From the IMG/VR virus record IMGVR_UViG_3300027573_000094, positions 1 through 30,444 of that record: 30,444 nucleotides of DNA. One strand, given 5' to 3'. The notes under the pieces were generated by a model. That model was not told the DNA's origin. It did not search any database and saw only the letters and a program-made list of their open reading frames with translations. Shown one piece after another: positions 2,901 to 25,006 of the stretch (position 1 is the stretch's first letter; each line of letters begins with the position of its first letter). Position numbers and translations under genes: made by a program. Source of the stretch: a virus.

Positions 2901-3235
2901 AAATAAAAAAGATAAGGCAGAAGAAAATCCATATCGGTATATATGGTAGACTTTCAGGGATTATCGACAGAGCAGTGAGCCTTACGCCACAATATAGACC
3001 GCCAAGTCTGTGGTTCCATAATTTGGCTGCCCAATCCCTGATATTACTGACAGCTGAGTAATTTATTGGTTTTTACTCTTAACGGAAAGATACGGCAAAA
3101 ACGGGGGGTTGACATATTGGCTATTATCTCTTGACGGTAATGCAGACTCGGACTCTGCTCCCTCCACGAAAAAAGTGATGAAGTGACCTCACATTCGAGG
3201 ATTTTAACCAAATTTCAACCAAACTACAAGTAAAT
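2901..3235. other. 335-nt untranslated gap with several stem-loops
   Basis: There are no ORFs of note on either strand. The segment contains the 88-nt closed structure described separately (2954-3041). It also has a GCAGA/TCTGC hairpin with a 7-nt loop near 3140-3156 and short GC-rich elements before the phoH gene. It is more GC-rich and more structured than the A-rich gaps elsewhere in the window, which suggests a leader or small RNA rather than a decayed gene. Confidence 0.5.
2954..3041 (+). ncRNA. Candidate structured RNA (88 nt, closed by a 9-bp stem)
   Basis: TCAGGGATT at 2954-2962 is fully complementary to AATCCCTGA at 3033-3041. Inside, AGCC (2978-2981) can pair with GGCT (3025-3028). 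An inner hairpin forms from CCACA (2987-2991) with TGTGG (3009-3013), extended by GAC (2997-2999) with GTC (3006-3008). These nested pairings form one elongated rod with internal bulges. It is not a tRNA: there is no T-arm consensus. The strand is assumed from the direction of the flanking genes. It could be a leader element of phoH or a free small RNA. Confidence 0.35.
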
Positions 3236-3931
3236 ATGAAAAAAGGCACAGGAGTAAAAGGAGACAAGCCAACTGCGGTCAAAAAGGAATTGAAAAACGA
3301 GATAAAGTACCAAGTTCAGCTTACGGACGAACAGAAGGCTGTGAAGACAGGGGCTTATCAAAAGGATGTCACAATCGTACTTGGGCATTTCGGTTCCGGA
3401 AAAACTCTTGTAGCGGCTCAGATAGCATTGGATATGCTGTTTAAGAAGCAGATTTCAAAGATTTACATTACAAGACCGATTAACTTCGAGGCCACGGGAT
3501 TTTTGACAGGATCAGCCGATGAGAAACTGGCATTTCATACATTCCCAATCAAGCAGAATTTCTATGCCTGTTACAGCAAGGTGAAAATCGACGAATTATT
3601 CAAGGACGGGACTATACAGATTGTGCCAATCGACTACATGAAAGGCTACACTTTTGCTGACTCATGCACGATAGTTGACGAATTCGAGGATATTAATTAC
3701 AAGGATTTTGAGCTTATTCTTACAAGACTCGGAAAAGGTTCTAAATTGCTTTTCACCGGTTCCGAAGAACAGATTGACATAAAAGGAAGCTGCATCGACA
3801 AGATAAAATGCCTGCAGAACTTTGATTTGGTTAACTACCATGTTCTTACTTCACAGCACAGAAACGAGGCCATTATGCAGATTCTGAACTTCGTTAAAGA
3901 CAATCACTCGGTTAAATCTCAGCAAAACTAG
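3236..3931 (+). CDS. phoH: PhoH-like P-loop ATPase
   Basis: PhoH-like proteins are cytoplasmic P-loop ATPases, common in phages, with suspected roles in RNA metabolism or phosphate stress. The 231-residue product has a Walker A motif GHFGSGKT at residues 50-57 and a Walker B TIVDE at 145-149. A sensor-like LLFTGSEEQID lies at 171-181, in the order and spacing of the PhoH core. The first 25 residues are basic and probably disordered. The gene sits directly after a structured untranslated region and is followed 3 nt later by the next ORF. The family is clear; the precise phage function is not settled. Confidence 0.88.
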   Translation: MKKGTGVKGDKPTAVKKELKNEIKYQVQLTDEQKAVKTGAYQKDVTIVLGHFGSGKTLVAAQIALDMLFKKQISKIYITRPINFEATGFLTGSADEKLAFHTFPIKQNFYACYSKVKIDELFKDGTIQIVPIDYMKGYTFADSCTIVDEFEDINYKDFELILTRLGKGSKLLFTGSEEQIDIKGSCIDKIKCLQNFDLVNYHVLTSQHRNEAIMQILNFVKDNHSVKSQQN

Positions 3932-7454: not shown

Positions 7455-7494
7455 CCCCCTTTGAGTGCCTTGCATCACTTTTAGGGGGTTTTTT
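7455..7494 (+). terminator. Terminator/attenuator hairpin in the leader of the endonuclease gene
   Basis: CCCCCT (7455-7460) pairs with AGGGGG (7483-7488), with an inner AGTG/CACT pairing, and is followed by six T. The loop contains CTTGCAT (7469-7475), which is complementary to ATGCAAG (7425-7431) in the leader, so an alternative or pseudoknotted fold is possible. It ends 6 nt before the ATG at 7501. Confidence 0.6.
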
Positions 7495-7500
7495 GTATTT

Positions 7501-8268
7501 ATGAAAAGAGGTTTTGTAAAAAAGGGCGATATTATAGATAGGACAGGTGAGAAATTCATCACAAATGAGGGGTATGAGGTCGAGATAGTTCAGTATTTTG
7601 GGGTTTATGATTGCACTATTAGGTTTAGTGACGGAACAATTATCTGTAACATGAATTTCGGAAATATAAAGAAGGGTACGGTTAAAAACCCTAATCACAA
7701 ATCAGTTCAAGGAATTGGATACTTTGGCATAGGTGAGTATAAAGCACATGCTGGAAATAGTGAAAACACTACAGTTTACAATGTATGGAGAAACATGATT
7801 ATTAGATGTTATAATAGCAAAGCACAATTAAAACAACCAGCATACATCGGCTGCTCAGTTCACCATGATTGGCATTGTTTTCAAAATTATGCTAAATGGT
7901 ATTATGAAAACAAAACAGAAGACTGGTATGTGGATAAAGATATTTTATTTAAGGGTAATAAGGTTTATTCTCCTGAAACGTGCTGCTTTGTTCCTAATGA
8001 AATTAATGTCCTTTTTACAAACAGTAGAAAATCAAGAGGTGAGTTTCCTGTAGGGGTGCAAAAATACAGTCGTAAATTTAAAGTGGCACTAAGTATAAAT
8101 GGAAAGCATGTATATCTAGGGTTATTTAGCACTATAGAAGAAGCGTTTCAAATATACAAAACTACCAAAGAATCACATATCAAGGAAGTAGCTAATTTAT
8201 GGAGGCCTAGGATTATGCCAAAAGTTTATGAAGCTATGATTAATTATGAAGTTGAAATCACAGATTAA
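7501..8268 (+). CDS. AP2-domain HNH-type homing endonuclease
   Basis: I chose the ATG at 7501; an in-frame GTG at 7465 lies inside the terminator hairpin and is unlikely. The 255-residue protein has the layout of phage AP2/HNH homing endonucleases. A central segment reads VYNVWRNMIIRCYNSKA, then YIGCSVHHDWHCFQNYAKWY and YSPETCCFVPNEIN, a histidine/asparagine-rich nuclease-like region. The C-terminus is an AP2-like DNA-binding unit with PVGVQKYSRKFKVAL, KHVYLGLFSTIEEA. Such genes are selfish mobile elements that cut a specific site. It stands alone between an attenuator and a bidirectional terminator, outside the neighbouring operons. The family is likely; the target is unknown. Confidence 0.75.
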   Translation: MKRGFVKKGDIIDRTGEKFITNEGYEVEIVQYFGVYDCTIRFSDGTIICNMNFGNIKKGTVKNPNHKSVQGIGYFGIGEYKAHAGNSENTTVYNVWRNMIIRCYNSKAQLKQPAYIGCSVHHDWHCFQNYAKWYYENKTEDWYVDKDILFKGNKVYSPETCCFVPNEINVLFTNSRKSRGEFPVGVQKYSRKFKVALSINGKHVYLGLFSTIEEAFQIYKTTKESHIKEVANLWRPRIMPKVYEAMINYEVEITD

Positions 8269-13951: not shown

Positions 13952-14734
13952 GTGACTAAAATAAAGAACTACGATCAGGATATAGAAATTGACCTTCAGG
14001 ATAAACTTCTTGGAACAGATATAAACGGGAACCCTACCAAAAACTACCCGTTCTACAAGATAATCGACTTTTTGCTTTCGCAGGGAGTTGGCGAAGGAGG
14101 CGGGGACGTTTCCGGCAAGGAAGACAAATTCAACAAGGTTTCCACAGTTGCTGGAAACGAGTCAGATTTGGTGAAATATCCAAACACAAAAGCGCTTTAT
14201 GACGGGCTTGTGGCCGCTGTATCCGAAGCAAACAGCTACACCAGCTCGATTTTCACCGGTACGGCTCAGGACGACCAAGTTGTGCATCTTGACGGGAACG
14301 AAACGATAAACGATTTCAAGATATTTACAGAGCTGGTTACTGCTTCAGGATTCAGGATACCAGGCGGTATTCCGGCAGGGTTCCATAAAGCAGACGGCTC
14401 CATTGACTACAGTGAGTACATCACGCTTGAAGACATACCGGAAGACGAAACCCTTGTATTGCAGGCAACAAACAAGACCGGAGTAGCTATACCAAAAGGC
14501 TCTGTTGTTTACATTGACGGGGCGCAGGGAAGTAAGCCTACTATCGCATTGGCGTTGGCCGACTCTAATGTAACCACATCGCTGGCTATAGGTATAGTTA
14601 AAGATACCATAGCAAATAACGCAAACGGTGTTGTTGTCACAAACGGACTTATAGAATCTCTTGACACCAGCGCATTTGCAGAGGGAAACAAGGTGTTTCT
14701 GTCTTCTGTTTTACCCGGAGGAATACACGTCTAA
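13952..14734 (+). CDS. Tail fibre / adhesin, N-terminal part (frame-broken)
   Basis: A 260-residue frame starting at GTG 13952. The first 45 residues (MTKIKNYDQDIEI, then GTDINGNPTKNY) match the fibre gene at 10600 and look like a shared virion-attachment unit. A glycine-rich linker (GVGEGGGDVSG) and helical and beta segments follow. The last part (GVAIPKGSVVYIDGAQGSKP, GNKVFLSSVLPGG) resembles a phage adhesin domain that should continue. The frame stops at 14734. A single-base change near 14717-14722 (CCCGGAGGAATAC) would join it to the next frame as LPGEYTSKLDRL, giving one 991-residue fibre. It is therefore probably the N-terminal half of a broken or frameshifted gene. Confidence 0.7.
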   Translation: MTKIKNYDQDIEIDLQDKLLGTDINGNPTKNYPFYKIIDFLLSQGVGEGGGDVSGKEDKFNKVSTVAGNESDLVKYPNTKALYDGLVAAVSEANSYTSSIFTGTAQDDQVVHLDGNETINDFKIFTELVTASGFRIPGGIPAGFHKADGSIDYSEYITLEDIPEDETLVLQATNKTGVAIPKGSVVYIDGAQGSKPTIALALADSNVTTSLAIGIVKDTIANNANGVVVTNGLIESLDTSAFAEGNKVFLSSVLPGGIHV

Positions 14735-16928
14735 ACTTGACAGGCTGGTGGATGTAGACGTAGATTCTGCCATGGATAACGACGTGCTTCAGTATAATTC
14801 TGCTTTGGGATTATGGGAAAACAGATCGGAACTGGAGATAGGCTCCATTCAGACAGATTTAATCACAATTGGTAATACCGAACTTGACGAAAAGTTACTT
14901 CAGTTAAACAACGCATCGCTTTCTACCGGACTGTATGAATTCGGCTCAGGAGGCTTGACAAACAACTCATCCACCTCGTTTAACATAGGCAACGTAAAAG
15001 GATTTATTGTTGACTCTGATGACCCGTTGGATTCCAACCCGCTATTCATTGATTATCCCGGAATCATCGGGCAGACGACTCCGTGGTTATTGTCTCATGC
15101 CGCTACCTATGTTTTAATCAAGCCTGATTTGACACCTATGCTGCTGAACGCAAGGCCGACGGTGACACAGAGGAAGGATAATATATTTTTAGGCGTTGTA
15201 GGCCATCCAAACGGGGCTATAGGAGGTATAGGAAACTCTCCTGACCTTATCATGAACGTGATGTCACAGGTGAGGGCGATGTTTGAGCCTATCAGGTTCA
15301 TTAACGGAGGAATTGTGTGTTATGCCAACGGGACCAATATGGCACTAGCCAATACTCCGGGTAATCTTTACGGACTTGGAATCGGCTTTATCACAAACGG
15401 GAATGACGCACCTTCTGTACTGGCAGTTTCGGCAGGTACACCAAGTACGTTTCAGTACCGTACATATATAGGGACAGTTTTCGCGAATACCACTCTTATC
15501 GAGGGAGGGTTTTACGACCTGACGGGAGTAAGAACAGCTATACCGGGAAGCTCGAATCAGGCGACCAACCAGAGGATATATCTGCTTCAGAACGGCGCAA
15601 TCAGGATACAGTACGGACAGAATCTGTATTCGACACTGAACAATGCAATATCTGCGGCATCAAGCGAGGTTTTCGTGGAGGTTACAAACAACAGGAACCT
15701 TGGTATTTTGATCGGGATATTAGCGGTTACAAAGGGCTGTACAGATTTATCAGACGTAAATACGGCTAAGTTTTTATCCGTGAGCAAATTCGGGGAATCG
15801 AACATCGCTGCTGCGGGTATCGCTATCGGGACGCTTCAGACTGCCTACAAAAACTCCCTGATACCTCAGATACTTGTTGACGACGCTTCAGGAGCTTTTA
15901 CGCTGCAGAACGCAAGAGCCTTGAACACATCTACAATTCAGGAGTGGAAGAATATAGCGGGGACTACTACGGCGAGTATTACGGGGAACGGTCTGCTGAC
16001 TACGGCTGTTGATGCTTCGATTAATGGATTGACAGTTGGTAAAGGTTCGGGGAATATGTCCCAAAATACAGCAGTCGGAAATTTAGCACTAAGGGATAAT
16101 GTCAGTGGGAATGCGAATACAGCAATCGGTTTTACGGCTTTAAAATTAGTCACGACTACGGTAAACAATACAGCAGTTGGTCAAGGGGCTTTAGAGAATA
16201 CGATAACTTCTAATAACACAGCTGTAGGATATGCGGCATTAAGTTTGAATTCTTCTGGCGCACAGAACAACGCTTTTGGAAGATTGGCATTAAGCAATAT
16301 TACGTCAGGAAATGACAATATTGCAATGGGGAGTGCTGCTGGAAATTCTTTGTTAGATGGAGTAACCGCACATACATCAAGTACTCAAAATGTATTTTTA
16401 GGTGGCAACACAAGGTCATTCGCAAACGCTCAAACTAATCAAATTGTAATAGGATACCTCGCTCTTGGCATCGGCTCCAACTCCGTAGTACTTGGTAACG
16501 ACTCAGTTACCAAAACTGCCCTGAAAGGAAACGTGATAATGGGCCAGACAGGGACTATTACTGACACAGGGGAAAAACTGCAGGTTACAGGTACTATCAA
16601 GGCAACGGCTGTCCACTCATTCATCGAGACAAACGTACAGGCGGGGACGACTTACATCCTGCTGGCTACGGACAACTGCAAGCAGATAATCACGACAAGC
16701 TCGTCTCCGGTTACAATCACGATTCCGACAGGTCTTGGGACAGGTTTCAGCTGCGAGGTATTACAGCAGGGAACGGGACAGGTGAGTTTTGTGGGATCAG
16801 GCACGACTCTGAGATATTCGAGTTTTGAGATGCCGAGCGTGGTTGAGATATACGGAAGCGTGATAATAAGCAATATCTCGAATGTGACAAATGAGTTTAA
16901 ACTGGACGGAGATTTGACGAGCCTGTAA
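14661..16928 (+). CDS. Large fibre with YadA-like head repeats (frame-broken C-terminal part)
   Basis: An open frame of 755 codons. The first 18 residues are an out-of-frame overlap with the upstream frame and are probably not real; homologous-looking protein starts near 14718, and a free-standing start could be the ATG at 14772. Residues about 20-60 (LDRLVDVDVDSAMDNDVLQ) look like the natural continuation of the 13952 protein. The central 400 residues are beta-rich. From about 455 to 590 (nt 16020-16440) there are repeats of the YadA-like head type (NTAVGNLALRDNVSGNANTA and similar). A beta-rich tip (TITIPTGLGTGFSCEVLQ) ends the protein. It should be a receptor-binding fibre. The repeat region appears more AT-rich than its flanks (not computed), hinting at acquisition. 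Confidence 0.75.
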   Translation: MTPAHLQRETRCFCLLFYPEEYTSKLDRLVDVDVDSAMDNDVLQYNSALGLWENRSELEIGSIQTDLITIGNTELDEKLLQLNNASLSTGLYEFGSGGLTNNSSTSFNIGNVKGFIVDSDDPLDSNPLFIDYPGIIGQTTPWLLSHAATYVLIKPDLTPMLLNARPTVTQRKDNIFLGVVGHPNGAIGGIGNSPDLIMNVMSQVRAMFEPIRFINGGIVCYANGTNMALANTPGNLYGLGIGFITNGNDAPSVLAVSAGTPSTFQYRTYIGTVFANTTLIEGGFYDLTGVRTAIPGSSNQATNQRIYLLQNGAIRIQYGQNLYSTLNNAISAASSEVFVEVTNNRNLGILIGILAVTKGCTDLSDVNTAKFLSVSKFGESNIAAAGIAIGTLQTAYKNSLIPQILVDDASGAFTLQNARALNTSTIQEWKNIAGTTTASITGNGLLTTAVDASINGLTVGKGSGNMSQNTAVGNLALRDNVSGNANTAIGFTALKLVTTTVNNTAVGQGALENTITSNNTAVGYAALSLNSSGAQNNAFGRLALSNITSGNDNIAMGSAAGNSLLDGVTAHTSSTQNVFLGGNTRSFANAQTNQIVIGYLALGIGSNSVVLGNDSVTKTALKGNVIMGQTGTITDTGEKLQVTGTIKATAVHSFIETNVQAGTTYILLATDNCKQIITTSSSPVTITIPTGLGTGFSCEVLQQGTGQVSFVGSGTTLRYSSFEMPSVVEIYGSVIISNISNVTNEFKLDGDLTSL

Positions 16929-16951: not shown

Positions 16952-17434
16952 ATGAAAACTACATTAACAGGAAGAATAGAGAGGATTAAATTGTTTATAG
17001 ATAATGGATATACAGCAGACCTGGAAACAGGTTTGGTGTATAGTCCAAAACCAGGTACAGATGAGATGATAAAAAGAGGGTGTATTAATAATAAAGGTTA
17101 TATGGCGCTAACAACAAAACTTAATGGTAAAAGCATCAAGTTGCAAGCGCATCATTTTATATACTATTTAGCCACTGGAAAAGTGGTAGACGAATTAGAT
17201 CACATCGACAGAACAAGACATCACAATGGAGTAGCAAATTTAAGGGAAGTAACCCATAGTGAAAATCAGCAAAACAAAGATGAAGCTAGAGGGTATTACT
17301 ATGTAAAAAAGATTGATAAGTACAGAGTTAAATTAATGACTAACGGTGTAAGAATGGATGTTGGGTATTTTAAAACCGAAGAAGAAGCTAAGCAGGCATA
17401 TTTAATAGCTAAAAATAAATATCATATACAATGA
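16952..17434 (+). CDS. HNH homing endonuclease with AP2-like tail
   Basis: A 160-residue HNH endonuclease. The core reads AHHFIYYLATGKVVDELDHI, then HHNGVANLREVTHSENQQNK: histidine pair, DH, and the HN...N pattern. The C-terminus is an AP2-like DNA-binding unit (YYYVKKIDKYRVKLMTNG, VGYFKTEEEAKQAYLI), related in layout to the 7501 protein. It lies between two fibre genes and overlaps the next start by 4 nt (ATGA), so it could be translated with it. It appears more AT-rich than the fibres around it, as expected for a mobile gene. The target site is unknown. Confidence 0.85.
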   Translation: MKTTLTGRIERIKLFIDNGYTADLETGLVYSPKPGTDEMIKRGCINNKGYMALTTKLNGKSIKLQAHHFIYYLATGKVVDELDHIDRTRHHNGVANLREVTHSENQQNKDEARGYYYVKKIDKYRVKLMTNGVRMDVGYFKTEEEAKQAYLIAKNKYHIQ

Positions 17435-19902
17435 ATATAAACAGAAGATACAGACTGCTTTCGAGAGGAAAAAGCCCGTCAAAGGAAGCTATGAAGCGCA
17501 CGTATAACCGCGCACTTCTTAATGGAGGTATTACTGTTGACTTCTCCGCAAACATTGAGAATATCAGGGAGATTTCGCGAAAACTCGGCTACAACGTATT
17601 ATCAGATGCAACTTTTGTTTATGTTCCGTCAAGCTACGGTGAAAGTAAAAACTTTTCACAAAATCCTACTTTGAGGAATTTAGTTAAGTATAGTGAGGAG
17701 TTTGATAATGCGGCTTGGACTAAAGGCGGGGGAACAATAACGCCGAATGCGATAGCCAACCCTATTGATGGATTAGTAACGGCTGATTTATATACGGAAG
17801 ACAGTATATCGTCGCAGAAATTAATAAATAGTAGTTCTATTTTACTAAAACCTAACACGAATTATATATATAGTATTTACTTAAAATATAATGGTAGACA
17901 AACAGTACTAATTAACGCATCTGATGGGTTGGTTGGGAAAACTAGAACTTTTGATATTTTAAACGGCGTTATAATTGGGTCAAGTACTGATTGCAGTATT
18001 ATTAGTGTTGCGGGGGGTTGGTACAAATGCACTATTACTAGGTTAATGGGGTCAACTGTAGGGGGCGGATTGTTATCAATGAATAACAGTACTTACGTTG
18101 GAAATGGAACTTCAGGGTTTTATATGTACGCTGCTCATGTTGAAGAGGGTATTATCTCAACAACCTACCAAAGAACAACAGACGCAATATCCGACTTCAC
18201 ATTTACAAGGGCTACAAGTTCAACAACTACAAATAAACTAGGGGTTATTGAGGATAGTTGTTATAATCTTTTGCAGAGGAGTGAGGAGGTTGATAATGCG
18301 GCTTGGGGTAAATTTCAGTCAACTATAACGCCAAACACTACGACAGCGCCAAATGGTACGGTAACAGCTGATAAATTAGTTGAGGATGTTTCAAATAATC
18401 GTCATTTTACCCGTCAAAACACTATAGGCAACGGAGGCTCATATACTTTCTCAATATTCCTAAAAGCGGCCGAAAGAAGTTTTGTCCGTTTTTGGGAGGA
18501 CGTAAACACAGGCAAGCAGTGCTATTTTGACTTAACAAATGGGACAGCTAACAATAGCAGTATGGATAGCACAAATATTACTTCATATCCTAATGGATGG
18601 TATTTATGCTCGGCAACAATAAATTCAGTAACTGGTAATTTTGGGTTTGCTGTAAATATAAGCACAAACGGAGTTACTACGTCCTATACAGGCGATGGAG
18701 TTTCAGGTATTTATATATGGGGAGCTATGTTAAACGCAGGCTCAACACCTAGACCATACCTAAGAACAACCAACAGATTAAACGTTCCTTGTTTAGATTA
18801 TAGCAGCCAGGCAAGAAGGAATCTTTTGAATTACAGTGAGGAGTTTGATAATGCGGCTTGGACTAAAGGTAATACTAGTATTGTAGCAAATGCGATAAAT
18901 GATATAAACGGAAGTTTAACAGCGGATAAACTAAATGAAACAGCAACAACTGGAATACATTCAGCAAGTCAATCTGTCACAATATCAAGTGCGGGAACAT
19001 ATACTGTTTCTGTATATGTGAAAGCAGCAGAAAGAACTTTTTTCAGAATAGCAGATGCTGCGGTTACTTTTGGTGCTATATTTAATTTATCTAGTGGGTC
19101 AGTCGTTTCAAACGCAGGGGCAAGTGTTATAAGCTCTGATATAGTCAGTAAAGCCGATGGGTGGTTTTTAGCGTCTGCAACTTTTAGCAGTACAACAGGT
19201 TCAAAAGGTTACTTTTTCGAAACTATGCCTAACGGTTCTACTATTAGCCATTTAGGTGTAGCCGGGAGCGGTGTATATATTTGTGGCGCACAGCTGGAAT
19301 CAGGAAGCATGGTGACTCCTTACCAAAAGACCACGACACTTGTTTCTCCGACAAAGGACGAGCCTAGTTTAGCGATAGAGCCGCAATCTACTAACCTAGT
19401 TCTATGGAGTGAAGACTTTGACAATGCGGTATGGCTTAAAGGGAATTCAACCGCTACGGTCAACACTAATTTAAGTCCATTCGGCACAAATAAAAGTTAT
19501 TATTTAAACGACAGTAATGCTCTTGGTGTGGCTCACTTTTTAGAGCAAACAAATAGTATCACTACAGCACTTCCTTATACCGCTAGTTTCTATGTGAAAA
19601 AAGCAACAGATACTTGGTGTCAATTTGCACTTGGTATAACAGCTTTTAGCGCAAATGTGTGGAAGAATTTTAATTTCGACACAGGACTGTTCGGGAATGG
19701 TGGCGCAACAGGGACTTGGACAGCTAAGAGTTTAGTTAATGGGTGGTGGATGATTACCGTAACAAGTAACTCTATAGCAACAGGTGTCAATGTATCGGTA
19801 AATATAATCGCTACAAACAACACTGACTCTGCGACTAGAGGATTGGCTTATACCGGAACAACTAGGAATTTTTGCGATGTATCAGCAATACAATTTGAAT
19901 AA
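17431..19902 (+). CDS. Lectin-like fibre with four carbohydrate-binding repeats, N-terminal part of a split gene
   Basis: An 823-residue protein. Residues 1-75 are a basic start (MNINRRYRLLSRGKSPSKEA) and linker. Four repeats of about 170-180 residues follow, each beginning with a version of NLL-YSEEFDNAAWTKG (near residues 87, 284, 467 and 658). Each continues with KLxED and YTFSIFLKAAERSF-like strands and a YQxTT end. These resemble jelly-roll carbohydrate-binding modules of the CBM4/9 type and probably bind host glycans. The last repeat stops at CDVSAIQFE without the usual SYI-PTT continuation. That continuation (ATSYIKTTTATVTRN) opens the frame at 20482, after the HNH gene at 19955. The gene was therefore split by insertion of the endonuclease. 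Confidence 0.8.
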   Translation: MNINRRYRLLSRGKSPSKEAMKRTYNRALLNGGITVDFSANIENIREISRKLGYNVLSDATFVYVPSSYGESKNFSQNPTLRNLVKYSEEFDNAAWTKGGGTITPNAIANPIDGLVTADLYTEDSISSQKLINSSSILLKPNTNYIYSIYLKYNGRQTVLINASDGLVGKTRTFDILNGVIIGSSTDCSIISVAGGWYKCTITRLMGSTVGGGLLSMNNSTYVGNGTSGFYMYAAHVEEGIISTTYQRTTDAISDFTFTRATSSTTTNKLGVIEDSCYNLLQRSEEVDNAAWGKFQSTITPNTTTAPNGTVTADKLVEDVSNNRHFTRQNTIGNGGSYTFSIFLKAAERSFVRFWEDVNTGKQCYFDLTNGTANNSSMDSTNITSYPNGWYLCSATINSVTGNFGFAVNISTNGVTTSYTGDGVSGIYIWGAMLNAGSTPRPYLRTTNRLNVPCLDYSSQARRNLLNYSEEFDNAAWTKGNTSIVANAINDINGSLTADKLNETATTGIHSASQSVTISSAGTYTVSVYVKAAERTFFRIADAAVTFGAIFNLSSGSVVSNAGASVISSDIVSKADGWFLASATFSSTTGSKGYFFETMPNGSTISHLGVAGSGVYICGAQLESGSMVTPYQKTTTLVSPTKDEPSLAIEPQSTNLVLWSEDFDNAVWLKGNSTATVNTNLSPFGTNKSYYLNDSNALGVAHFLEQTNSITTALPYTASFYVKKATDTWCQFALGITAFSANVWKNFNFDTGLFGNGGATGTWTAKSLVNGWWMITVTSNSIATGVNVSVNIIATNNTDSATRGLAYTGTTRNFCDVSAIQFE
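17692..19440 (+). repeat. Four in-frame lectin-like repeats with near-identical DNA at repeat starts
   Basis: The repeat starts lie near 17692, 18280, 18835 and 19408. The 35 nt at 17692-17726 and 18835-18869 are identical, and 18280-18306 differs from them at one base over 27 nt. Elsewhere the repeats have diverged. This suggests recent gene conversion or strong constraint at the module entry (SEEFDNAAWTKG). Confidence 0.65.
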
Positions 19903-19932
19903 CGCAACTATGATTTACCCAACGAAAATCGT

Positions 19933-19940
19933 TATATTTG
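19933..19940 (+). promoter_or_regulatory. TATATTTG promoter carried by the HNH insertion
   Basis: TATATTTG lies inside the inserted DNA, 14 nt before the ATG at 19955. There is no good TTG -33 box. It would let the endonuclease, and possibly the 3' fibre fragment, be transcribed independently of the host fibre gene. Confidence 0.4.
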
Positions 19941-19954
19941 TAAAAAAAACAGAT

Positions 19955-20479
19955 ATGGAGGATTGGAAGTTCGTGAATGAATCTTATGAGATTAGTTCTA
20001 AAGGAAAATTAAGAAAAGGCAATTTTATACTTAAAGGCAGTATAAAGAAAACAGGATACTTAGAATATTCAATGAGTGTAAAAGGAAAACGTATTTATGC
20101 ATTAGCTCAAAGATTAGTAGCTATTCATTTTATCCCAAATCCGGAAAACAAACCCGAAGTGAATCACATTGATTTCGATACGTTAAACAACGAAAAATCA
20201 AATTTAGAATGGAGTACTCGATTGGAAAACATAAGACATTCAAGAAGAAACGAAAGGTATCCTAAAAATATTTCTAAAAGAAGTGTTGATACTTTGAGAA
20301 AAGACAAGGATGCTAAAAGACACAAAATGAAGCCAGTAGCTAACGATATAGGGGAGATTTTTGAGAGTGTAAAAGAGGCTGAGAGAAAATACAAAAACGG
20401 AAATATTCATACTGCCATAAAAAAGGGATGGAGCTGTGCGGGAATGAAATGGAAGCATATTAACAACGAAAATAATTAA
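19955..20479 (+). CDS. NUMOD4-HNH homing endonuclease inserted in a fibre gene
   Basis: I chose the ATG at 19955 over an in-frame ATG at 19877, because the first 26 codons would overlap the fibre gene and the TATATTTG box. The 174-residue protein begins MEDWKFVNESYEISSKGKLR, a NUMOD4-type DNA-recognition start. It has the HNH core AQRLVAIHFIPNPENKPEVN, then NNEKSNLEWSTRLENIRHS, and a NUMOD1-like end (DIGEIFESVKEAERKY). The core is clearly paralogous to the 24265 protein (RLVAxHFIPNPENKPxVNH). It sits between the two halves of a lectin-like fibre, with almost no flanking DNA, so it is a free-standing insertion rather than an intron-encoded gene. Confidence 0.85.
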   Translation: MEDWKFVNESYEISSKGKLRKGNFILKGSIKKTGYLEYSMSVKGKRIYALAQRLVAIHFIPNPENKPEVNHIDFDTLNNEKSNLEWSTRLENIRHSRRNERYPKNISKRSVDTLRKDKDAKRHKMKPVANDIGEIFESVKEAERKYKNGNIHTAIKKGWSCAGMKWKHINNENN

Positions 20480-20481
20480 CT

Positions 20482-20979
20482 ATGGCAAGAAATTCAGCCA
20501 CAAGCTACATAAAAACAACTACAGCAACAGTAACGCGAAACGCTGAACTTTCTTTTGTTGATTTGTTTAATAACAATATGCTAAACCAAAATAATTTTAC
20601 TTTGTTTGTTGAGGGGTATAGTTATAATGGATTTAACTCTGATGGATGCGTGTTTTTAGCTAATGCAACGGGGGGCTTCACTTCTTCGGCTGACTGTATT
20701 GGTTTTTGGAATGGTGTTTCGGCATTATGGAGGGATACTTCTGTTACTAACGTTATCAATTCTGTTTTAACAGGTTCTTTTAAATTTGTAGTACAAAGAA
20801 GTGGTACTACTGTTAGGTTTTTTAGAAACGGGGTACAGTTTGGAACTACTCAAACTATAACTGTTGCGAATTATAGATATTTAAATGTAAATCATGGCGG
20901 TTCAACTTACGCAGTAGATAAAATATTTTTGTTTAACCGCACTTTGAGCGACGCGGATTGCGTTTTGCTTACAACATAA
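20482..20979 (+). CDS. C-terminal fragment of the split lectin-like fibre
   Basis: A 165-residue frame starting at an ATG only 2 nt after the HNH stop. Its first residues (MARNSATSYIKTTTATVTRN) are the natural continuation of the carbohydrate-binding repeat that ends at 19902 (AIQFE). The codons after ATG read GCA AGA AAT, which would follow GAA directly in the unsplit gene. The rest is a LamG/concanavalin-like domain (FTLFVEGYSYNGFNSDG, DKIFLFNRTLSDADC) that usually sits at the fibre tip. It may be made as a separate polypeptide by restart, or be a dead fragment. The ATG seems to have been supplied by the insertion. Confidence 0.75.
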   Translation: MARNSATSYIKTTTATVTRNAELSFVDLFNNNMLNQNNFTLFVEGYSYNGFNSDGCVFLANATGGFTSSADCIGFWNGVSALWRDTSVTNVINSVLTGSFKFVVQRSGTTVRFFRNGVQFGTTQTITVANYRYLNVNHGGSTYAVDKIFLFNRTLSDADCVLLTT

Positions 20980-21005
20980 ATTTTAAAACAACAACTAACT
21001 ATAAC

Positions 21006-21704
21006 ATGAGATTAAAAGCGCAGAAAAATGAATTCTATGTTTACCTGCATACAAAAGAAGACGGAACCCCTTTTTATGTAGGTAAAGGCAAGGGCAAAAG
21101 AGCTTTTCAAAAATATGGCAGAAGCTCTTGGTGGAACAGGACATTTGCTAAATACGGACTTGACGTCATTTTTCTTGAAGAAAACTTACCGGAAGAAAAA
21201 GCAATTGAATCAGAAATATATTGGATAAAGCGAATAGGAAGGCTAGACTTAAAACAAGGCGTATTAGTTAATCAAACAGGCGGCGGAGACAAGGGTACAA
21301 CTGGACGTCTGAACACTGAAGAATATAAAGAGAAAATGAGGAAGGTGAATTTAGGTAATAAATACAACTTAGGTAAAACACATTCTTTAGAAACTAAAGC
21401 AAAAATATCATTATCTCAAAAAGGAAGAAAAACATCTAAAGCGACTAAATTAAAATTAAGAAAAGCTATGTTAGGTGAAAAAAATCACATGTTTGGCAAA
21501 AAGATGTCCAATGAAGCAATACGCAAAAGAAGTATTAGCAGGTCAGGAGAGACTAGAGAGAGAATTATTGTCCTAGATAGTGAAACAGGGGTTTTTTACA
21601 CATCTGTAAGAGACGCCTCTAAATACTACGACATGAAATTCTCTACTCTGTACAACCAGCTTATAGGTGTAAACAGAAATAAAACTAACCTAATAATAGT
21701 GTAA
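21006..21704 (+). CDS. GIY-YIG homing endonuclease
   Basis: I chose the ATG at 21006; the in-frame ATG at 20958 overlaps the fibre fragment. The 232-residue protein has the GIY-YIG nuclease at its start: EFYVYLHTKEDGTPFYVGKG, in which YVY and FYVG take the GIY and YIG places. A conserved Glu follows in the helix EEKAIESEIYWIKR. Two NUMOD3-type DNA-binding repeats follow (NLGKTHSLETKAKISLSQKG and MFGKKMSNEAIRKRSISRSG). A NUMOD1-like end (VRDASKYYDMKFSTLYNQLI) closes it. It is a free-standing mobile endonuclease between fibre genes, 3 nt before the next ORF. The target is unknown. Confidence 0.88.
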   Translation: MRLKAQKNEFYVYLHTKEDGTPFYVGKGKGKRAFQKYGRSSWWNRTFAKYGLDVIFLEENLPEEKAIESEIYWIKRIGRLDLKQGVLVNQTGGGDKGTTGRLNTEEYKEKMRKVNLGNKYNLGKTHSLETKAKISLSQKGRKTSKATKLKLRKAMLGEKNHMFGKKMSNEAIRKRSISRSGETRERIIVLDSETGVFYTSVRDASKYYDMKFSTLYNQLIGVNRNKTNLIIV

Positions 21705-21707
21705 ATT

Positions 21708-22334
21708 ATGAAATTGTATGCACAGCAATACACCAGCCCTCTGCCGACAGAGGACAAATTCGAAAACGTATTTATTGAGGACACTGGATTTTCCGTAAAG
21801 AGAAACGACAAGTACTTTTCCACGACATTCGAGATGTACCACCTAAAGAACGGAAACAGAATCACCTTGGACACGTTTACGCTTCAGTTCCTTGGTGTGG
21901 ACGGAGATTCAGCAACCACAAACAGGACTACGGTGATGTCGATTCCGAATCCGGATTACGAGGCTATGGTCGCGGCAATTCCGACAGAAGTGACGATTTC
22001 TAATCCAGACTATGAATCTGATGTTGACGGTTCTCAGGAATTCATTACAATCACGAACCCTGATTATGAGCAAATGCTGGCAAATGTCCCTGTGAGAATC
22101 AATACTCCTATGATAAATTACCTGATAGAACACCAGGGAGTGATGCCGGAAGACTACACTATGGTTGATTACGGCTATCCGAACTACACTGCGGTAATGC
22201 CGAACTTTGACGGCGGCACTCTGACTTCTCCTGAGCTTTTCCTGAATAATGACTTTGCTAAGGCTTGGTTCCTGGAAAACGTCTTCATGAAAGGCGAGAA
22301 AGTAGGATTGCAGTTCCAATTCGTTACAGAATAG
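21708..22334 (+). CDS. Probable virion protein with NPDYE repeats
   Basis: A 208-residue acidic protein without a signal. Residues about 80-130 hold three repeats of the pattern (P/S/T)NPDYE, each followed by a Met/Val-rich stretch (SIPNPDYEAMVAAIPTE and two more). The rest is beta-rich (FSVKRNDKYFSTTFEMYHLK). It follows the fibre and endonuclease block and overlaps the next gene (TAGTG). A structural or fibre-chaperone role is plausible from context. I do not recognise the family. Confidence 0.6.
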   Translation: MKLYAQQYTSPLPTEDKFENVFIEDTGFSVKRNDKYFSTTFEMYHLKNGNRITLDTFTLQFLGVDGDSATTNRTTVMSIPNPDYEAMVAAIPTEVTISNPDYESDVDGSQEFITITNPDYEQMLANVPVRINTPMINYLIEHQGVMPEDYTMVDYGYPNYTAVMPNFDGGTLTSPELFLNNDFAKAWFLENVFMKGEKVGLQFQFVTE

Positions 22335-22756
22335 TGGTTACGGCATTACTGCTTGTGGCACTGTCCCTGGTGATTATATTTTCGCCGGGGATAGTCCTGT
22401 CACTGATAGCCCCGTTCCTGTTTGCTTTGATGTCTCTGCCAAATCTCCTTGTGATACTCGTGAAGAACTACAATGTACACAGCTTCCGGAAGACGGTGAA
22501 CAGGTATTCCATGCAGTCTGCGGTAAACGTGGACAAGTTCGGGAACAACAATCTGAGTCCGTTGCTGAACGCATTTCTGATAAAAAATGACGGTTACAGG
22601 TTTGGCGATCCGCAGGAAACAATATCTTCGGTGCTTGGGAGAAACCAATTTTCGAAAACATTAACAGTAATTGGCAAGATAATCGTAGTTTTACTCTACG
22701 TAATCGACGTGCAGTACTGGTTTAAGGGCGGACACTGCCTTAACAGCATAAAATAA
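22334..22756 (+). CDS. Hypothetical membrane protein
   Basis: I place the start at the GTG at 22334, which overlaps the preceding TAG (TAGTG); an ATG at 22265 lies deep in the previous gene and would add an unlikely arginine-rich start. The product of about 140 residues opens with two hydrophobic stretches (VTALLLVALSLVIIF, GIVLSLIAPFLFALMSL). A polar middle (VHSFRKTVNRYSMQ) follows, and then a last hydrophobic segment (LTVIGKIIVVLLYVIDV). It is probably an inner-membrane protein. The family is unknown. Confidence 0.55.
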   Translation: MVTALLLVALSLVIIFSPGIVLSLIAPFLFALMSLPNLLVILVKNYNVHSFRKTVNRYSMQSAVNVDKFGNNNLSPLLNAFLIKNDGYRFGDPQETISSVLGRNQFSKTLTVIGKIIVVLLYVIDVQYWFKGGHCLNSIK

Positions 22757-24264: not shown

Positions 24265-24924
24265 TTATATATGCTTCCATAGCTTACGACTTAATATGCA
24301 GCTTATCGTATCTCTATCGACTCCATATATCTCTGCTATTTCTCGTTGAAACATATTTTTTCCTATAGCCCTGATTTCAAGCACCTGTTCTTCTGTTAAT
24401 TTCGCTCCACCATGCTTTGATCCTTTTTGCGGTTTTAGCAATCCAGTATCGCATGCGTGTTGTATGTTTTCAGCAGTTGTACACCATTCTAAATTGTCCT
24501 TACGATTATCCCACTTGATTCCGTTTTTATGATTGACAAATGGTTTATTTTCAGGATTCGGTATAAAGTGTAAAGCAACTAAACGGTGTACCATAAATCT
24601 TTCTTTTTCTGAATCTTTATGTAGAGCCACAGATAAATAACCGTCTTCCATTTTTGAAAGATGCAGCCTTCGAGGAAATACGTAAATATAGCTTTTCACG
24701 CCTCCTGCATCACTAATGTCATAAATGCCTTCATATCCGACAATCCTTGTCCATTCTTCTCCCTCGACATCAGAGGGCGGAATTGTTGTGTACTTAGCAA
24801 GAGATTTAGCTTTACACTTCTTACATTTTGCACGAAATCTAATGATTCCATTTTTAAGTTTATCCATTGGAAATAGCTCCAATGGTTTTATCTCGTTGCA
24901 AGTATTGCATTTTTTTATCTCCAT
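24265..24924 (-). CDS. NUMOD4-HNH homing endonuclease with zinc knuckle and HTH end
   Basis: I chose the ATG at 24924; an ATG at 24981 would add a stretch lying in the paired leader. The 219-residue protein begins MEIKKCNTCNEIKPLELFPM and has CxxC...CxxC (CNTC, CKKC), a zinc-ribbon-like start. NUMOD4 follows (EEWTRIVGYEGIYDISDAGG), then the HNH core (VHRLVALHFIPNPENKPFVN, DNRKDNLEWCTTAENIQHA). The end is a helix-turn-helix (VLEIRAIGKNMFQREIAEIY, GVDRDTISCIL). The core is paralogous to the 19955 endonuclease. It lies upstream of the small virion gene, on the same strand, and divergent to terL. Confidence 0.85.
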   Translation of the reverse strand: MEIKKCNTCNEIKPLELFPMDKLKNGIIRFRAKCKKCKAKSLAKYTTIPPSDVEGEEWTRIVGYEGIYDISDAGGVKSYIYVFPRRLHLSKMEDGYLSVALHKDSEKERFMVHRLVALHFIPNPENKPFVNHKNGIKWDNRKDNLEWCTTAENIQHACDTGLLKPQKGSKHGGAKLTEEQVLEIRAIGKNMFQREIAEIYGVDRDTISCILSRKLWKHI

Positions 24925-24936
24925 AAAATAGAAAAA

Positions 24937-25006
24937 CCCGTAAATCAAGAGGTCGTAGTCTCTATCCTTACGGGAATTCAAATGATGTTTTTATTTCGGC
25001 TACGAC
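24937..25006. other. Interleaved inverted repeats between HNH gene and terL
   Basis: CCCGTAA (24937-24943) pairs with TTACGGG (24968-24974), and GTCGTAG (24952-24958) pairs with CTACGAC (25000-25006). The two pairs interleave, so an RNA could form a pseudoknot, or the DNA could be a pair of protein-binding sites. On the reverse strand it lies in the leader of the HNH gene; on the forward strand it is upstream of the terL promoter. Confidence 0.4.

Follow-up and report, generated by a model that had tools for sequence, protein, structure and literature searches.

A fibre gene of an Elemovirus-like phage, very probably divided by a free-standing HNH endonuclease gene

A gene for a sugar-binding fibre, carried in two open reading frames, is described here from the IMG/VR virus record IMGVR_UViG_3300027573_000094, of which the whole 30,444-nucleotide stretch (positions 1 to 30,444; hereafter the window) was studied. 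That an insertion splits this gene is almost beyond doubt, and the inserted element is very probably a free-standing HNH homing-type endonuclease gene that entered a conserved fibre motif and left a gene in pieces. The upstream frame (17431–19902) encodes 823 amino acids and closes with ...VSAIQFE before a TAA; the downstream frame (20482–20979) encodes 165 amino acids and begins with M-ARNSATSYIKTTTATVTRN. Removal of 585 base pairs (bp; 19900–20484) joins the GAA codon at 19897–19899 in frame to the GCA codon at 20485–20487. The insert opens with TAA CGCAACT..., continues as an open frame that stops at 20479, and ends in CT and ATG; the stop codon of the 5' half (19900–19902) is insert sequence, being the first codon of the insert. 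A sequence-only reading of this stretch had proposed an insertion of about 580 bp, nearly all endonuclease, that supplies the TAA of the 5' half and the ATG of the 3' half. Both codons can be read directly from the sequence, and the likely endonuclease frame accounts for all but about 60 of the 585 bases.

Both halves match the tail protein family phrog_5939, the 5' half in four stretches, best at profile positions 404–596 (expectation value [E] 2e-72), and the 3' half at positions 588–733 (E 2e-7). A test sequence of 394 residues, in which the flanks were joined, can be aligned across the junction to 87–93 distinct stretches of IMG/VR phage loci, and no internal stop occurs among the 87 junction-crossing stretches that were counted. 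The best match (L006; E 1e-33) spans residues 8–394, two further matches are of nearly full length (L010, E 7e-33; L009, E 5e-27), and each of the three lies in one open frame. Because the halves are consecutive parts of phrog_5939, and because the joined sequence aligns with dozens of intact genes, the split reflects more than chance; the proposal that an HNH gene divides a lectin-like fibre gene is borne out in this respect, as is the predicted in-frame junction of GAA with GCA AGA AAT, through which the homologues read. The alignment is gapless around the junction in 52 of the 87 stretches, and the preservation of residue number in the best matches indicates that the insertion is exact.

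The motif at the junction is conserved, with Q-[LF]-E on the 5' side and xxxx followed by ATSYIPT on the 3' side. The family reads G-A-Q-L-E-x-G-S-x-A-T-S-Y-I-P-T, and the window reads A-I-Q-F-E before the junction and A-R-N-S-A-T-S-Y-I-K-T after it. Many homologues finish no more than one residue from the end of the 3' half, which therefore stops where the family does. Uninterrupted homologues that join AIQFE to ARNSATSYI, by which the split could be checked, are thus numerous; for the motif they include gene 10 of an isolate, Nonlabens phage P12024S, in which the C-terminal domain is different. Conceivably, the 17431 and 20482 frames could be two distinct genes by nature, with the endonuclease merely lying between them, since both possess a start and a stop of their own and the second has a good restart context. 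However, the 3' half opens with the conserved repeat end ATSYI.TTTATVTR that is begun in the 5' half, the homologues are continuous, and no fibre ending naturally, or split, at the QFE motif was found elsewhere in the fetched loci, where such endings were sought. We regard separate genes as highly improbable. An assembly chimera is even less credible: the window is a metagenome contig, and a 97-bp difference at 14724 means that at least one contig holds a variant or an error, but the junctions are exact and keep the reading frame, and a longer, near-identical second contig (IMGVR_UViG_3300009678_000059; 74 kb) shares the insertion, matching the window over 12 kb with a single mismatch, which speaks against a chimera.

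The product of the inserted frame is, by motif and family profile, an HNH homing endonuclease. The frame matches Pfam HNH_3 at 28.1 bits (cut-off 24.8), NUMOD4 weakly and under the Pfam cut-off, PHROG 59 (HNH endonucleases; E 2e-32), and PHROG 959 (E 4e-26). Among solved structures, sequence comparison gives one relative, the HNH homing endonuclease 1u3e (I-HmuI; E 3.8e-7, residues 5–109), and the HNH core residues H71, N83, and N92 are kept (alignment A3). The frame is open from 19877, with a further ATG at 19910, and stops at the TAA of 20477–20479. A start at 19877, the first position marked in the earlier reading, is not favoured, although the role of the gene in splitting the fibre holds: that ATG sits within the fibre gene, out of frame with it, and is an unlikely start, and the ATG at 19955 (MEDWKF, NUMOD4-like) is preferred on domain content and start context. 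Start contexts were scored with a matrix built from 23 reference starts, themselves scored leave-one-out, and compared with the 905 ATGs of the window; the ATG at 19955 falls in the top 3.3%. None of the relatives of this endonuclease (L095–L108) lies inside a fibre, judging by neighbouring frames. In the proposed mechanism, the nuclease would cut or nick the uninterrupted motif in related phages, and its gene would then be copied in by recombination.

HNH endonucleases such as I-HmuI occur in group I introns. The inserted gene encodes a relative of the I-HmuI type, and such elements usually insert into conserved motifs; a splicing element (a group I intron with its endonuclease, or an intein) would restore a single fibre protein. 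Yet Rfam searches were null both for the window at the gathering threshold and for 19800–20600 with E up to 10, bar a chance microRNA match, and a self-splicing intron was rejected, in keeping with the initial impression that no intron core fits. The few bases outside the endonuclease frame also speak against splicing. A U is usual directly before group I introns, and the 5' flank here ends in A. As for an intein, the first insert codon is an in-frame stop, so that there is no continuous reading frame, and an intein is excluded. Taken together, we consider a splicing element very unlikely. The sequence AACTATG does occur at both ends (19906–19912 and 20478–20484), as had been noticed, but it was rejected as an insertion footprint or target-site duplication: the first copy begins six bases into the insert, two random 30-nucleotide pieces of the window have a 7-mer in common in 4.5% of trials, and the TAA would stay in the gene if the sequence between the copies were deleted, so the repeat does not mark an empty site.

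The end of the insert may also provide for expression of the 3' half. The restart ATG (20482–20484) is in frame with the 3' half, is separated from the endonuclease TAA by CT, and is preceded by AACAACGAAAATAATTAACT. A Shine-Dalgarno-like motif was seen in the 20 bases before none of the 25 starts examined in this phage, and these 20 bases hold on average 10.7 A, compared with 6.6 for all ATGs. In Flavobacterium johnsoniae, initiation benefits from adenines at −3, −6, −12, and −13 (PMC6847099); A-rich starts lacking Shine-Dalgarno motifs therefore fit phages of Bacteroidota. The restart ATG has A at −3, −12, and −13 and T at −6, and its score of 6.9 is higher than that of 91% of reference starts and within the top 0.66% of the 905 ATGs. 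As this context is the end of the endonuclease gene, the insert appears to carry its own restart signal. The fibre start receives a similar context from the end of the HNH gene that precedes it (ATGA overlap, score 5.0); the end of the GIY-YIG gene downstream gives no such context to the gene at 21708 (score −4.5). RNA hairpins at the endonuclease start and the restart codon are about as stable as those of shuffled sequences (z −0.24 to −1.37), and a TAnnTTTG box at 19933 is no evidence of a promoter in the insert, given 41 such boxes in the window. Ribosomes would start the 3' half directly at 20482, through the A-rich context, or alternatively would re-initiate two bases past the endonuclease stop. 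Translation of both fibre halves seems, on balance, probable.

The predicted fold is compatible with a divided but functional fibre. A profile built from the uninterrupted homologues matches the RcGTA head spike fibre Rcc01080 (E 7e-62) as well as proteins of other phages that belong to the baseplate or fibre; with its head fibres, RcGTA can attach to the capsule of the host (PMC7296036). In the L006 model (mean predicted local distance difference test [pLDDT] 79; predicted template modelling score [pTM] 0.57), the last jelly-roll strand, TAYIWGVQLE (residues 203–212), stops exactly at the residue equivalent to the junction. The 17431 protein thus does stop at AIQFE, as first read, albeit at the end of a repeat, after its last strand, and not in mid-repeat. 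Residues 213–230 of the model are nearly all non-strand, and their high pLDDT (87–90) despite this suggests packing on the lectin domain. Modelled alone, the 3' half takes a LamG/CBM40-like lectin fold in which the first 23 residues are of low confidence; the placement of this tail in L006, together with its low confidence in the lone 3' half, makes a docking tail plausible. Some 19 N-terminal residues of the 3' chain would then attach its C-terminal lectin domain to the 5' chain, forming a two-chain fibre. From sequence and models, we put the chance that the fibre works as two chains at slightly less than even. The fuller proposal, in which evolution has turned the end of the endonuclease gene into a built-in non-Shine-Dalgarno restart and the receptor-binding protein truly consists of two chains with a docking tail of about 19 residues, is speculative and would have to be called unlikely at present.

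The gene may instead be simply truncated, with the 5' chain used alone and the 3' half a relic that has not yet decayed. The 5' half retains all four lectin-type repeats, the loss being limited to the C-terminal domain, and the insertion could be recent, as both known contigs are nearly identical. But the 3' half is an intact frame of 165 codons that reaches the natural end of the family, and its start context matches those of real genes of the phage. Truncation is therefore a serious alternative, though a rather doubtful one.

Several observations weigh against an active homing insertion that left two working chains. Position H52 (alignment A3), a histidine in 11 of 11 other sequences, is Q in the inserted HNH protein, which makes present homing activity uncertain. 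The restart ATG could owe its context to nothing more than A-rich codons, and at a pTM of 0.57 the tail packing in L006 is weakly supported. Further, no close uninterrupted relative was found by the phage-record DNA search, the 3'-half protein search, or among bacterial genomes.

Table 1. Features of the divided fibre gene, its insert, and the adjoining endonuclease genes in the window
Feature	Position	Strand	Description	Basis
Fibre gene, 5' half	17431..19902	+	823 amino acids; N-terminal region and four jelly-roll lectin-type repeats	phrog_5939 and homologues
Insertion, 585 bp	19900..20484	+	Between fibre GAA and GCA codons	Uninterrupted homologues; same residue count in best matches
NUMOD4/HNH_3 endonuclease gene	19955..20479	+	174 amino acids; likely start 19955	HNH_3 and PHROG matches, I-HmuI relative, start context
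A-rich non-Shine-Dalgarno initiation context and restart ATG	20462..20484	+	Supplied by the insert	Start-context score 6.9
Fibre gene, 3' half	20482..20979	+	165 amino acids; tail of last repeat (about 19 residues) and LamG/CBM40-like C-terminal domain	phrog_5939, alignment, model, fold search
HNH_3 (weak AP2) endonuclease gene	16952..17434	+	Directly 5' of fibre gene; stop overlaps fibre ATG (ATGA)	Pfam
GIY-YIG/NUMOD3 homing endonuclease gene	21006..21704	+	Directly 3' of fibre gene	NUMOD3 E 2e-14; phrog_314 E 1e-27

By sequence, this phage is Elemovirus-like and belongs to the phages of Bacteroidota. Its nearest isolates by terminase are Flavobacterium Elemovirus and Cellulophaga phages (55% identity), and a GroES gene adjoins the terminase gene both in the window and in these isolates; an assignment to the crAss-like phages was dropped in view of these terminase neighbours. 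In three related loci (L084, L086, and L089) and the isolate elemoA, the tail region leads to a small gene of the 22992 type, GroES, and terminase, without the fibre of the window. In the window, the tail gene is separated from the 22992 gene by a block of about 6 kb (16952–22756), comprising the HNH gene, the split fibre, the GIY-YIG gene, and the 21708 gene; this block is absent from all four, and neither the fibre halves nor the 21708 gene has a significant match there. The tail gene itself differs between contigs: 97 bp of the near-identical contig L003 (around its positions 3197–3293) are missing from the window at 14724–14725, and the resulting frameshift leaves two frames in the window (13952–14734 and 14661–16928) where L003 encodes 1024 amino acids. 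This difference is either an assembly error or a real variant.

Other endonuclease genes and interrupted genes were also seen. The GIY-YIG gene begins MRLKAQ (21006–21030) and the following gene MKLYAQ (21708–21732), and the former may have taken over the 5' end of the latter, by copying or by replacement. In L092 (1678–5301), terminase homology is divided into two pieces separated by about 1 kb (residues 1–426 and 432–866); terL may be split or interrupted there too. An additional NUMOD4/HNH_3 endonuclease gene lies beside the terminase gene on the minus strand (24265–24981), and a plus-strand frame at 7465–8268, which has no Pfam match, looked like another endonuclease.

The arrangement described here is rare and already documented, and is found in this case in a probable host-recognition protein. 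Among known systems, I-HmuI (PDB 1u3e) resembles the inserted HNH protein in sequence and in its HNH core, but it is encoded in a group I intron, whereas the window gene has no detected intron and one nearly invariant histidine is Q. The baseplate and fibre jelly-roll proteins of RcGTA (Rcc01080), E217, and Pa193 belong to the same domain family as the window repeats (profile E 7e-62 to 1e-21); these are single unbroken chains with the motif intact, in contrast to the window fibre with its several repeats and its split. The surroundings are reminiscent of the homing endonuclease gene (HEG) islands, in which cargo serving a key phage function lies between at least two endonuclease genes (Barth et al. 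2023, PMC10448857). Here, HNH (16952–17434) and GIY-YIG (21006–21704) genes flank the fibre, so that, with the inserted gene, endonuclease genes occur on both sides of the fibre gene and within it, and relatives lack this fibre gene; the likeness is one of gene layout.

The closest parallels are the HNH "genes in pieces" of Aeh1 nrdA/mobE and T4 topoisomerase gene 60/mobA (PMC2988022). In these, as in the window, a coding sequence is broken by a free-standing HNH gene in the absence of an intron or intein, the two parts stay open with their own stop and start, and the endonuclease genes tend to overlap or abut their neighbours, suggesting translational coupling; in the window, the interrupted sequence is continuous in homologues. 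Aeh1 nrdA demonstrably functions after its split (PMC2988022), whereas the split in the window is known at the level of sequence. The window also differs in representing a Bacteroidota phage with non-Shine-Dalgarno starts, and the split fibre could offer a simple place to test translation restart in phages of such bacteria. Selfish endonucleases usually survive within genes by means of introns or inteins. The few phage genes named in a review as split without either all encode enzymes of nucleotide or DNA metabolism (PMC2988022), and a limited literature search found no report of a fibre gene split by a free-standing endonuclease. Whereas the Aeh1 and T4 targets are such enzymes, the target here is a fibre with a probable role in host recognition, which raises the question of whether host recognition tolerates a two-piece protein; if the two-chain reading is true, a homing endonuclease would have converted a phage host-recognition protein into a non-covalent complex.

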